This document shows, piece after piece, positions 30,665 through 36,022 of a stretch of DNA of 64,000 nucleotides. A program made the position numbers and the translations under genes. This stretch comes from Allosalinactinospora lopnorensis. Lineage in GTDB: Bacteria; Actinomycetota; Actinomycetes; Streptosporangiales; Streptosporangiaceae. Every line of letters starts with the position of its first letter. Position 1 is the first letter of the stretch. The notes under the pieces are model-generated. The model was given only the letters and a program-made list of their open reading frames with translations. It ran no database searches and was not told where the DNA came from. The DNA is taken from contig NZ_LAJC01000012.1 of the NCBI RefSeq assembly GCF_000981225.1, forward strand, positions 24,001 to 88,000, read 5' to 3'.

Positions 30665-33515
30665 CTAGCTGCAGCCGCTGGTGGAGCCGCAGCCCTCGCA
30701 GACGTAGCAGCTGCCCGACGGGCGCATCTTGGTGCCGCAGGTGACGCAGAGCGGGGCGTCGGTGATGAAGCCCTGCTTGGCCTCGGCGTACTCGGCCGTG
30801 CTGTGCGGCTCATCCGGCCTGGCGGAGGGGGCGGAGTCGGGGCGCTCCTCCGTCTCGGCCGTGTCCTGCTCCCCGGCGTCCCCGGGGACCACCGGGGCCG
30901 ACTGGGCGTACGACTCCACCTGGGCGGCGACCTGCGACGGGTCCTCGCCGGCGGCCTGGGCGCGCCGCTCCTCCGCGGACAGCACACCGAGCGCGGCCCG
31001 CTCCTCGTAGGAGAGGTGGTCCAGCGCCAGGCGGCGGAAGATGTAGTCCACCACCGACTGGGCCATGCGGATGTCCGGGTCGTCGGTCATGCCGGCCGGG
31101 TCGAAGCGCATGTTGGTGAACTTCTCGACGTAGGTCTCCAGCGGCACGCCGTACTGCAGCGCTATGGAGATCGCGATCGAGAACGCGTCCATGACGCCGG
31201 CCAGGGTCGAGCCCTGCTTGCCGAGCTTCATGAACACCTCGCCGAGACCGTCGTCGGGGTAGGAGCCCGCGGTGATGTACCCCTCGGCACCGCCGACCGT
31301 GAAGGACGTGGTCTCGCTCGGCCGCTTCTTCGGCAGCCGCCGCCGGACCGGCCGGTTGACCTCGACGATCTGGGGCTCGGGCTTCTCCTCCGCCTGATTC
31401 TCGGTCGTGGCCGTGGACAGCGGCTGGCCGACCTTGCAGTTGTCGCGGTAGACCGCCAGCGCCTTCAGGCCGAGCCGCCACCCCTCGAAGTAGATGTGCT
31501 CGAAGTCCTCGACGGCGGCCTCTTCCGGAACATTGACCGTCTTGGAGATCGCCCCCGACAGGAAGGGCTGGACCGCGGCCATCATCTTCACGTGGCCCAT
31601 GGGCTCGATGTAGCGCTTGCCCATGGCGCAGTCGAACACCTCGTAGTGCTCGGGGCGCAGGCCGGGGGCATCGACCACGTGGCCGTACTCCGCGATGTAC
31701 TCGACGATCGCCTCGATCTGCTCCTGCGGGTAGCCGAGATTCTTCAGCGCGCGCGGGATCGCCTGGTTGACGATCTGCATGGACCCGCCGCCGACCAGCT
31801 TCTTGAACTTGACCAGCGAGAAGTCCGGCTCGATTCCGGTGGTGTCGCAGTCGAGCATGAAACTGATGGTGCCCGTCGGCGCGAGCAGGCTCGCCTGGGC
31901 GTTGCGCCAGCCGTTCTTCTCGCCGACCGTGAGGCAGTCCTGCCATGCCTTGGTGGCGGCCGTGCGGATCGGCTTCTCCGTCTGCCCGATCGTGCGCAGG
32001 TCGTCGTTGGCCGCCGCATGCTTGCGCATGACCGCTTGTGCGCCTCGGCGTTCTTGGCGTAGCCGTCGTACGGGCCGACGACGCCGGCCAGCTGCGCGCT
32101 GCGCTTGTAGGCCACGCCCGTCATCAACGAGGTGATGGCCGCCGCCACCGCGCGGCCGCCTTCGGAGTCGTAGGCGTGCCCTGTGGCCATGAGCAGCGCG
32201 CCGAGGTTCGAGTAACCAATGCCGAGCTGGCGGTACGCGCGCGTCACTTCCGCGATCTTCTCCGTGGGAAAGTCGGCGAAAGTGATGGAGATGTCCATCG
32301 CGGTGATGATCAGTTCGGTGAGCCGAGCGAATTTGTCGACATCGAACGAGTCGTCCTCACGCAGGAACTTCAAAAGGTTGATCGAGGCCAGATTGCAGGA
32401 CGAATCGTCCAGGCTGAGATATTCGCTGCAAGGATTGCTCGCGCTGATCCGTCCGGTCTCGGGGTTGGTGTGCCAGTCCTGGATCGTGTCGTCGTACTGG
32501 ATTCCCGGGTCGGCGCACTCCCACGCGGCCTTCGCCATGCCGTGGAAGAGTTCCTTGGCCTCGACGGTGGCGACGACTTCACCGGTGGTGCGGGAGGTCA
32601 GGCCGAAGTCGGAGCCGCTCTCCACGGCGCGCATGAAGCGTCGGAGACCCGCACCGAGTTGTTGGCGTTCTGGTACTGGACGCTGACGATGTCCGAACCG
32701 CCCAGGTCGACGTCGAACCCGGCGTCGCGCAGAGCGCGGATCTTGCGCTCCTCGCGCGCTTTGGTCTCGATGAACTCCTCGACGTCGGGGTGGTTCACGT
32801 CGAGCACGACCATCTTGGCCGCGCGGCGGGTGGCGCCTCCGGACTTGATGGTGCCGGCGGAGGCGTCGGCACCGCGCATGAAGGAGACCGGACCGCTGGC
32901 GGTGCCCCCGGAGGACAGCAACTCCCGGCTGGAGCGGATCCGGGAGAGGTTAACCCCGGCGCCGGAGCCGCCCTTGAAGATGATCCCCTCCTCCTTGTAC
33001 CAGTCGAGGATCGACTCCATGGTGTCGTCCACCGACAGGATGAAGCATGCCGAGACCTGCTGCTGGGAGGCGGTTCCGACGTTGAACCAGACCGGCGAGT
33101 TGAAACTGAAGAGCTGGTGCACCAGCGCGTGCTTCAGTTCGTGGTCGAAGATCTCGGCGTCCTCGTCGGCGGCGAAGTAGCCGTGCGCCTTACCGGTCTC
33201 GGTGTACGTGCCGGCCACTCGGTCGACCAGCTGTTTGAGGCTCCATTCGCGTTCCGGGGTGCCCACGGCGCCGCGGAAGTACTTGCTGGCGACGATCTGG
33301 GTGGCGTTCATCGACCACGACGCCGGGAACTCCACACCGCGCTGCTCGAAGTTGACCGAGCCGTCGCGCCAGTTCGTCATGACCACGTCGCGGCGTTCCC
33401 ATTCCATTTCCTCGTAAGGATGGACACCGGGCGAGGTGAAGACACGCTCCATCTTCAGCCCCTTGCGCTGCCCCTTGCCCTTACGCGTGGACGTGCCGCT
33501 GGTGGTCTCCGTCAT
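30665..33515 (-). CDS. nrdJ: Adenosylcobalamin-dependent ribonucleotide reductase (class II), two frameshifts in this sequence
   Basis: About 950 residues once two single-base gaps are bridged. It reduces ribonucleotides to deoxyribonucleotides with vitamin B12. Conserved parts appear in order: LFSFNSPVWFNVG, FKGGSGAGVNLSRIRS, NPCSEYLSLDDSSCNL, LLAPTGTISFMLDCDTTG, and a C-terminal Cys cluster (CVTCG, CYVCEGCG). The first break is near 32636-32641 (before FMRAVESGSDFG) and the second near 32031-32034 (AEAHKR then MRKHAAAN). Each is repaired by adding one base, and the protein reads without a gap across both. The start is ATG 33515 after GGGAG. It lies 115 bases after nrdR on the same strand. 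Confidence 0.9.
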
Positions 33516-33630
33516 TTCGCTCCCCCTGTTCTCGCCAGATTCCCGGTTCCGCCGCGCCAACCGTCCTGGACGGCGGTCCCTCACATCTCGTCGGTCCCTC
33601 GCTCGCCGCGGCGCCTTATGGGTCCGCCGC

Positions 33631-34098
33631 TCAGTCCCGCTCGTTCGCCACGGCCCTGCCGGTCCGCAGCACCGCGATCTCGTTCTCGAAGTCGGCCAGG
33701 GACTCGAACCCCCGATATACCGAGGCGAAGTGCAGGTAGGCGACCTCGTCGAGCTCCCGCAGCGGGCCGAGGATCGCCAGCCCGATCTCGTGCGAGGGAA
33801 TCTCGGCGACCCCGCGGCTCCTGATCTCCTCCTCGACGCTCTGTCCCAGCTTGGCCAAGGCGTCCTCGGTGACGGGACGCCCCTGGCAGGCACGGCGCAC
33901 CCCGGCGATGATCTTGGACCGGGAGAACGGTTCGGTGACGCCGGACCGCTTGGCGACCATGAGGAGCACGGTCTCCTGCGTGGTGAACCGGCGCTCGCAC
34001 TCGGGGCACGCGCGGCGCCGCCGGATCGCGGCGCCGTCGTCTGTGGAGCGGCTGTCGATTACCCGGGTGTCAGGATGACGGCAGAACGGGCAGTGCAT
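33631..34098 (-). CDS. nrdR: Transcriptional repressor NrdR
   Basis: 155 residues. An N-terminal zinc ribbon ([29 protein letters not shown]) binds DNA, and an ATP-cone (about 47-137) senses ATP and dATP. It represses ribonucleotide reductase genes when dATP is high. ATG at 34098 is set by the conserved start and by GGGGAGG upstream. It is followed by nrdJ, its expected target, and preceded by tandem NrdR-box-like sites. Confidence 0.95.
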
Positions 34099-34244
34099 CC
34101 CGGTGCGCCTCCCCCAGATCCGCATCGTCTCCGAACTCCGCCGCGCACCGCCGGGTTTCCCGTCGCGGGCGGCTTCGTTTTCGTCGCCGCAGTCGGCCCC
34201 TCACGGATCGGAACCGCCCGTAAGAGACCACTTATCCAGGGAAG

Positions 34245-34413: not shown

Positions 34414-35001
34414 TCACGAGGCCGGGAGCAGCAGCTCCTGACCGGGGGCGAGGTCGGCGGCGGGCAGGTCGTTCAGCTCCACGATCTCGTGCACCGTGCG
34501 GCGGGGGTCCTCGGCGGGGCGCGCCTGCTCGGCGATCTCCCAGAGCGTGTCGCCGTCCTCCACGATCACCGTGTCGGGTGTGACACCCAAGAGGGAGGAC
34601 GTGGAATCGGCGGGCGAGCCCGAGGGGGAGTCCGCCGTCGCCGCGGTGAGGAACAGCACGGAGAGGACGGACGTGGCGACGGCGGTGAGGGCGGCGACGG
34701 ACACCACCCGGCCCCGGCGGGTCAGCTTCGTCCCGCCGGGGGCGGGGCCGACGCCCGGCGCGCCCGGCCGAGCGGCATGCAGGCTGGGCAGGTCCGCCAG
34801 CGCAGGGGCCGGGGGGCGGCGTTCGCGCACCGCGCGCTCCGACCGCCATTCGGGTATCTCCTCCGCCCAGTCGTAGAGAGCGGGCGCGGAGGCAGGCCGT
34901 ACCGACTCGGCCTCGCCCCCGCCTCCCTGGCACAGGACCCGGGAGGCCGCCTCGCGGGGAGCCGCCGGGCGCGTTGGACGTTGCAGAACTGGTTCGGACA
35001 T
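34414..35001 (-). CDS. LysM-domain protein divergent from lexA (probable SOS cell-division inhibitor)
   Basis: 195 residues: a Pro/Arg-rich cytosolic N-terminus, one membrane segment (about 105-125, VSVAALTAVATSVLSVLFLT) and a C-terminal LysM domain (about 143-193, VIVEDGDTLWEIAEQARP) that would bind peptidoglycan. Genes of this layout lie beside lexA in many Gram-positives: YneA in Bacillus, DivS in Corynebacterium and Rv2719c in Mycobacterium. There they block or modify division after DNA damage. ATG at 35001 follows GAGGGAG. Two SOS-box-like sites lie in the 50 bases before the start, one overlapping the ribosome binding region. Confidence 0.8.
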   Translation of the reverse strand: MSEPVLQRPTRPAAPREAASRVLCQGGGGEAESVRPASAPALYDWAEEIPEWRSERAVRERRPPAPALADLPSLHAARPGAPGVGPAPGGTKLTRRGRVVSVAALTAVATSVLSVLFLTAATADSPSGSPADSTSSLLGVTPDTVIVEDGDTLWEIAEQARPAEDPRRTVHEIVELNDLPAADLAPGQELLLPAS

Positions 35002-35013
35002 AACCGTCTCCCT

Positions 35014-35043
35014 CGAACGCCAGTTCGCTAGAACCAACGTTCG
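35014..35043. promoter_or_regulatory. Two adjacent SOS boxes before the LysM gene
   Basis: CGAAC-GCCA-GTTCG (35014-35027) is a perfect match to the CGAAC-N4-GTTCG core. AGAAC-CAAC-GTTCG (35030-35043) has one mismatch and lies 16 bases away. Both are in the LysM gene leader or promoter, so LexA would repress that gene strongly. Confidence 0.7.
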
Positions 35044-35080
35044 ACTACTACCGCATCTGGGCGATTTTTTCAGCACCATC

Positions 35081-35096
35081 TCGAACGTTTGTTTGA
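35081..35096. promoter_or_regulatory. SOS box in the lexA-LysM intergenic region
   Basis: TCGAACGTTTGTTTGA differs from the actinobacterial consensus TCGAAC-N4-GTTCGA at one position. It is 160 bases upstream of the lexA start and is probably shared by lexA for autoregulation. Confidence 0.7.
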
Positions 35097-35255
35097 TGTT
35101 GCTTTGCGGGGGCACTAATGTTGGACACGTTGCATTGCGGTATCAGTCCGCAGTCATCAGCACAACGAACTCGGCTGATTACCGCCCGTATACACGGTCG
35201 AATAAACGACGAACGCACCGACAGCCCACTCTTACGACCGCCGAGGAGGCCGGCC

Positions 35256-36022
35256 GTGCCGGAGGAGAACCACGGAGCGCAGGAAGCGCACGCAAGCGTG
35301 ACACCTGTGACAACGCTCCGTTCCACCGCCCCGAACACCGCGGACGCACAGGCCTCTACGGCTCTACCGGACGCACCGCCGAAGCTTACGGCCCGCCAGC
35401 AGAGCGTCCTGAACTGCATCCATCGCTATGTTCGGCAGCGTGGCTACCCACCGTCGATCCGGGAGATCGGCGATGCGGTGGGGCTGTCGAGCCCCTCTAG
35501 TGTCGCGCACCAACTGAAGGTCTTGCAACGCAAGGGCTATCTCTACCGCGATCAGAACCGCCCACGCGCGGTGGAAATTCGCATTCCAGGACAGCCACCA
35601 GTGCGTTCCTGGGACCACCTGGAAGAGACACCTCCGGCCGATGAGTCGCACGCCATAGACGTCCCCGTTGTCGGCCGCATCGCGGCGGGCGGTCCGATCC
35701 TGGCCGAGGAGTCCATCGAGGATGTGCTGACCCTGCCGAAGCAGCTCGTCGGCGAGGGGCGGCTGTTCATGCTCAACATCGTTGGCGACTCCATGGTCGA
35801 CGCCGCCATCACCCATGGCGACCTGGTCGTCGTCCGCCAGCAGCCCGACGCGACAACGGTGACATCGTGGCCGCGCTCATCGACGACGAAGCCACCGTCA
35901 AGACCTTCAAACGCGAGGACGGGCACGTGTGGCTGCTGCCCCGCAACGACGCCTACGAGCCGATCAGCGGCGATCACGCCACGATCCTGGGCAAGGTCGT
36001 CACGGTGCTCCGCCGGGTGTGA
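35256..36022 (+). CDS. lexA: SOS repressor LexA, one frameshift in this sequence
   Basis: 255 residues when one missing base near 35850 is restored. It carries an N-terminal winged helix-turn-helix ([20 protein letters not shown]), the Ala-Gly self-cleavage site ([13 protein letters not shown]), and the Ser of the Ser-Lys protease dyad ([15 protein letters not shown]). The catalytic Lys is in [10 protein letters not shown], which lies after the break and is lost if the frame is taken literally. Reading straight on, the frame fuses into the next gene, which is clearly an artefact. GTG at 35256 follows GAGGAGG by 6 bases. It diverges from the LysM gene. Confidence 0.9.

Follow-up and report, generated by a model that had tools for sequence, protein, structure and literature searches.

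In the window (the whole stretch of DNA analyzed, 64 kb long), lexA and a gene for a LysM protein lie in divergent orientation, and three SOS-box-like sites, denoted A, B, and C, are all located between them, at most 245 bp from the lexA start (Table 1). A sequence-only reading of this DNA had placed three such sites between lexA and the gene for a divergent LysM membrane protein. This was confirmed, with zero, one, and one mismatches to CGAACN4GTTCG, and the coordinates and the 16-base spacing given for the two LysM-side sites were correct, A being perfect and B having one mismatch. From the start of box A to the start of box B is 16 bp, which leaves a gap of 2 bp. Read against the extended consensus TCGAACN4GTTCGA, boxes A, B, and C each show exactly one departure, so that none of them is plainly the strongest site.

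Table 1 Features of the lexA–LysM region, with positions in the window
Feature	Positions	Strand	Remarks
LysM gene, candidate SOS cell-division inhibitor	34414-35001	-	one transmembrane segment, C-terminal LysM
Shine-Dalgarno AGGGAG of LysM gene	35008-35013	-	directly after box A; similar place in relatives
SOS box A, candidate LexA site	35014-35027		CGAACGCCAGTTCG, 0 mismatches to CGAACN4GTTCG; in LysM gene leader
SOS box B, candidate LexA site	35030-35043		AGAACCAACGTTCG, 1 mismatch; predicted over LysM transcription start
Putative LysM -10 TAGTAG	35045-35050	-	1 base from box B core
Putative LysM -35 CTGAAA	35068-35073	-	17-bp spacer
SOS box C, candidate LexA site	35082-35095		CGAACGTTTGTTTG, 1 mismatch, CGAACNNNNGTTTG form; overlaps predicted lexA -35
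Putative lexA -35 TTGATG	35093-35098	+	overlaps box C; TTTGATATTG in logo of 9 clade loci
Putative lexA -10 TAATGT	35116-35121	+	17-bp spacer; CACTAACGTTGGAC in logo of 9 clade loci
lexA	35256-36022	+	GTG start; frame broken near 35852 in assembly

The genes flanking the three sites

The start of the LysM gene was taken as the ATG at 35001-34999 (minus strand), picked by eye from the Shine-Dalgarno sequence and from relatives. The core of box A ends at 35014 and AGGGAG occupies 35013-35008, and the two overlap only by the outermost base of the extended 16-mer. The boxes had been said to overlap the ribosome binding region of the LysM gene; box A abuts the Shine-Dalgarno sequence but does not cover AGGGAG, and box B lies further upstream.

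The LysM protein is ~195 aa long. Its Pfam LysM match scored 28.7 bits (cut-off 20.9) and is preceded by a hydrophobic stretch with a mean hydropathy of 2.25 over 19 aa; a hydrophobic stretch before the LysM motif was also found in 19/19 proteins of the clade of close relatives and in 111/112 proteins of the class. Features of a YneA/ChiZ-type inhibitor were found both in the protein, which has one transmembrane segment and then a LysM domain, and in its gene, which neighbors lexA and has LexA-operator-like sites. The proposed resemblance of this membrane protein to YneA/ChiZ is thus supported by the LysM domain after a hydrophobic stretch and by a sub-cut-off match to YneA. In the parts of the Bacillus subtilis literature consulted, the yneA gene beside lexA encodes an SOS-induced LysM division inhibitor with one transmembrane segment, which acts through FtsW, and the window protein is a candidate for such an inhibitor. 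However, the curated YneA equivalog model NF010723 has only 87 positions, and the window protein reached 39.6 bits against its cut-off of 60, so that by this model it is not YneA itself. YneA, DivS, and Rv2719c had been listed as known LysM-type inhibitors beside lexA. This holds for YneA and Rv2719c but not for DivS, which the relevant section of a review describes as unrelated to YneA, with no significant homology.

Beyond the LysM gene, positions 33631-34125 resemble nrdR and are followed by pieces of nrdJ. ARAGORN predicted a tRNA-Thr at 34452-34540, inside the LysM gene on the opposite strand; since there was no Rfam match in the window at gathering score, this prediction is likely spurious.

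The first part of lexA scored 156.8 bits, and a second LexA piece follows in another frame. Because this split match is the only lexA match in the genome, the locus could be imagined to be decaying, with lexA truly frameshifted and the operators left without a functional repressor; a real break would leave the switch without its normal repressor. We regard such decay as very improbable. All 21 relatives tested have lexA in one frame, and the part of LexA past the break is still 70-86% identical to these 21 relatives. Furthermore, the nearby nrdJ gene (B12-dependent ribonucleotide reductase, 30665-33527, minus strand) is spread over three frames, with breaks near 32637 and near 32020, pointing to assembly indels. 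Given the two nrdJ breaks and the identity past the lexA break, the break near 35852 is probably an assembly indel or sequencing error.

Occurrence of the sites in the genome, the clade, and the class

The 64-kb window contains seven sites with at most one mismatch to CGAACN4GTTCG, three of which are A, B, and C. Order-1 Markov sequences of the same length (n = 60) had a mean of 3.53 such sites, and none of the 60 had two of them within 110 bp. At up to two mismatches, 64 sites were found against 49.6 expected, a number reached in 2 of 100 shuffles. The whole-window total at this threshold is barely above chance, and the signal is thus the cluster and not the total. The exact 14-mer occurs at 26 places in the whole genome, compared with none for the reversed control, and box pairs with 2 to 10 bases between GAACN4GTTC cores occur at a single place, the present locus. 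Fifteen of the 26 places were inspected, the locus's own site included, and all 15 lie inside stop-to-stop frames of at least 200 codons, which in DNA so rich in GC carries no information about a regulon. Around five matches to a looser 16-base pattern, and around two other places, no known repair gene was recognized by eye. As in Gram-positive SOS boxes, the match of A, B, and C to CGAACN4GTTCG goes beyond chance and their position upstream of orthologous genes is conserved, with A kept less well than B and C.

The clade set comprised 50 of 74 lexA loci from a scan of named genomes plus the window, 51 in total, and covered Streptomonospora, Nocardiopsis, Thermobifida, and kin, as well as L021 (an Actinomycetes MAG) and L056 (Glycomyces fuscus). 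Presence or absence of the LysM gene was scored with an HMM seeded on 19 clade members, which returned the same 138 of 225 loci in all four rounds; it should be noted that the LysM-negative regions L103, L211, L270, and L292 end early at contig ends. Nineteen of the 51 clade loci, the window included, have the LysM gene and 32 do not. Boxes A and B are tied to this gene. Box B (up to two mismatches, homologous place) is present in 18/19 loci with the LysM gene and 0/32 without, and box A (up to one mismatch, homologous place) in 10/19, including the window, and 0/32, respectively, with three or more mismatches in box A in 8/19. The exact form of box C was found in 51/51 loci, and the distance between B and C is 52 bp in all 18 loci that keep B. 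The outer half of B is mostly kept in this clade, and its inner half is GTTCT. In many loci that lack the LysM gene (L032-L064 except L035 and L055), another palindrome-like block, with a sequence close to GTGTACACGTGTTCAC, is shared upstream of box C.

One could argue that all three boxes serve lexA and that the LysM gene is a bystander, given that none of them is more than 245 bp away from the start of lexA and that Firmicutes lexA promoters are reported, in the part of the literature consulted, to have one to three sites. However, A and B are missing where the LysM gene is missing in the clade and C stays. There is also a precedent in Mycobacterium tuberculosis, where a LysM division inhibitor, Rv2719c (chiZ), likewise neighbors lexA. 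According to the available part of that study, a single SOS box apparently governs lexA, whereas the three remaining boxes, together with a PafBC motif, serve the neighboring operon and have no influence on lexA; we read the gene names in that text as probable misprints of Rv2719c-Rv2717c. We therefore give the bystander explanation very little credence. As A and B are lost together with the LysM gene while C is kept, and in view of the M. tuberculosis precedent, the likeliest assignment is that of A and B to the LysM gene and of C to lexA, the same division into two boxes and one that the sequence-only reading had suggested.

In the class sample, lexA was found at E 1e-40 or better in 164/168 genomes, and one upstream region each was taken from 150; the window's genome was counted in the clade set and not in the class sample, and some organisms are in both sets. 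Within the 450 bases that precede the lexA match, these 150 regions together held 316 sites with at most one mismatch, compared with 2.35 in mononucleotide shuffles. Pair spacings had three peaks, one of 51 pairs at 16 bp, where shuffles gave none, one of 41 pairs at 52-53 bp, and one of 63 pairs at 68-71 bp, and the exact C form was present in 137/150 regions. Stacked boxes beside such a gene, which had been called unusual, are therefore not so, the 16-bp tandem being common in the class. Nor is the contact between box and Shine-Dalgarno sequence unusual: the gene-proximal half of box A is directly followed by the Shine-Dalgarno sequence in 17/19 LysM-bearing clade loci (exceptions L027 and L035), although the whole of box A is good, with at most one mismatch, in only 10/19.

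A pair 15-17 bp apart with up to two mismatches was found in 76/112 LysM-positive and 9/38 LysM-negative class regions (Fisher p = 3e-6, ignoring shared ancestry), and 36/112 LysM-positive regions had no such pair. The contrast was weaker at one mismatch (47/112 with LysM, 8/38 without; p = 0.03, ancestry likewise ignored). One family (code f18, 14 genomes) has the LysM gene in 0/14 genomes, no 15-17-bp pair, and box C in 14/14; these genomes appear to be Streptomyces, since their C site resembles the lexA-2 site of S. venezuelae. In the rest of the phylum, represented by 27 loci (of 53 genomes with a match), the 15-17-bp pair at one mismatch was found in 0/27 and the C form in 18/27.

All three boxes are present in 69 class regions, 61 of them with the LysM gene. 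Read in the direction of that gene, their consensus is TCGtACAGgCGTTCGA followed by TCGAACgcnTGTTCGA, which makes two abutting 16-bp operators. The 57 unique A-B stretches of the class and clade sets have CGAAC as the inner half of A in 52 cases and GTTCG as its outer half in 42. For B, the inner half reads GTTCG in 40 cases and GTTCT in 14, and the outer half CGTAC in 22, CGAAC in 13, and CGCAC in 8.

Two further arrangements were seen. The Clostridiales locus L088, the only Bacillota locus, has two LexA-like boxes upstream of lexA, beside a LysM match; a third box was picked out by eye where a ribosome would bind. Another tandem palindrome, GAACN4GTTCATGAACN4GTTC with a 14-bp pitch, occurs in 12 of the 30 loci listed (L123-L126, L131, L141, L143, L144, L147-L150), in several of them upstream of a methyltransferase-like frame (by eye), and is probably the operator of another regulator.

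Promoter motifs and RNA folding

A strict sigma-70 promoter scan of the lexA-LysM region found no promoter. In a logo of nine clade loci, the place of the LysM -35 is a NTGAAAAA block and that of the -10 is a TA-rich hexamer of variable sequence, and we infer that these two elements are the LysM -35 and -10 in the clade of the window. The predicted transcription starts are near 35038 for the LysM gene and near 35128 for lexA.

PafBC-controlled (RecA-NDp) promoters carry the motif TTGTCRGTG-N8-TANNNT. The role of this type of motif is described in the available parts of the PafBC papers. The relaxed full motif was found upstream of box B in 47/112 LysM-positive class regions (e.g., L212-L214) and in 2/38 LysM-negative ones, and TTGTCRG alone in 52/112 LysM-positive regions compared with 6 in reversed text. 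However, the relaxed form TGTCRG-N10-TANNNY was found in 0/19 LysM-bearing loci of the clade of the window, where the short TTGTCRG occurred in 2/19, compared with 1/19 in reversed text, and a genome-wide search for the motif with one mismatch gave no match at the lexA-LysM locus. For this clade, control of the LysM gene by PafBC was therefore rejected, although the motif is frequent elsewhere in the class; in M. tuberculosis, by contrast, the PafBC motif also serves the LysM operon, according to the part of the study consulted. Joint control by an activator and a repressor may be older and have been lost in the clade of the window. Two WYL-domain matches were found in one 723-aa open frame (contig C2:100714-101979), perhaps a fused PafBC.

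The palindromes could also act, instead of or besides being LexA operators, as a hairpin in the LysM mRNA leader that controls translation. Boxes A and B can fold as a 13-bp RNA hairpin of -22.7 kcal/mol (z = -1.99), and across the 57 unique pairs their spacers show Watson-Crick plus G-U pairing above permuted pairs (z = 3.1). However, adjacent SOS boxes pair in this way by form alone, and an equally good fold was found in 12/200 shuffles. Watson-Crick pairing alone was not in excess (z = 0.47), whereas pairs possible only on the other strand were equally in excess (z = 3.16), and B and C showed a similar excess (z = 2.5 to 3.7). These three results indicate that relatedness explains the spacer pairing. 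In addition, transcription is predicted to start inside B, in which case the hairpin would be transcribed only in part. After the other-strand and B-C controls, a leader hairpin was rejected as the main explanation and appears highly unlikely.

A proposed SOS switch and its relation to known systems

Reading the palindromes as LexA operators, we consider it very probable that the locus, which comes from an actinomycete closely related to Streptomonospora, is a conserved autoregulatory SOS switch, in which LexA represses lexA through box C and the LysM gene through boxes A and B. LexA on box C would cover the lexA -35 and keep lexA down, and LexA on boxes B and A would cover the start site and leader of the LysM gene, blocking the start of transcription and early elongation. 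Upon DNA damage, RecA-stimulated self-cleavage of LexA would free both promoters, and the LysM protein would then probably delay septation in the manner of YneA/ChiZ until newly made LexA resets the switch. The doubling of A and B may sharpen or delay the induction of the LysM gene. From this doubling the sequence-only reading had predicted tighter repression of the LysM gene than of lexA; A, B, and C depart equally from the consensus, which offers no basis for expecting their affinities to differ greatly.

A more tentative proposal, which we hold to be possible but somewhat doubtful, is that A and B form one composite LexA operator whose 16-bp pitch is fixed in much of the class. Two LexA dimers would occupy it jointly, one directly next to the other, C would be some five turns of the helix away from B, and the LysM gene would switch more sharply and later than lexA. 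In colicin genes with overlapping SOS boxes, neighboring boxes take two LexA dimers; these genes are on E. coli plasmids and their box sequence is different. A 2008 footprint study (PMC2248561), in the part consulted, noted that actinobacterial lexA promoters carry TCGAAC half-motifs which are not part of full boxes, asked whether LexA binds there as a monomer, and judged the positions of the sites in these promoters to be less conserved. That question would be answered more simply by full boxes that abut and of which one outer half is weakened, and a composite A-B operator, if true, would explain the surplus of half-motifs that the study could not place.

The S. venezuelae lexA promoter offers a likeness to box C. 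According to the sections of that work consulted, LexA binds two sites there in vitro, and one of these, lexA-2, has the C form. However, the authors state there that Streptomyces lacks clear homologues of known SOS division regulators. A table in the same work gives a fold change of -3.10 for lexA RNA with mitomycin C, which does not fit plain derepression, under which this RNA should increase.

It is already known that SOS boxes exist, that LysM inhibitors are encoded next to lexA, and that this region can hold more than one box; the new detail is the class-wide fixed spacing. No description of the fixed 16-bp plus 52-53-bp layout was found in the searched portions of the literature, which is not a claim of its absence from print. 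Judged from the compared sequences, the layout recurs in many related bacteria and represents a known circuit in a conserved form, not an oddity of one genome. The lexA-LysM region thereby gains a testable blueprint, in which each box is assigned to a gene and the constant spacing can be changed at will. Two groups lack both the LysM gene and boxes A and B, which marks them as lineages in which cell division after DNA damage may be timed differently.
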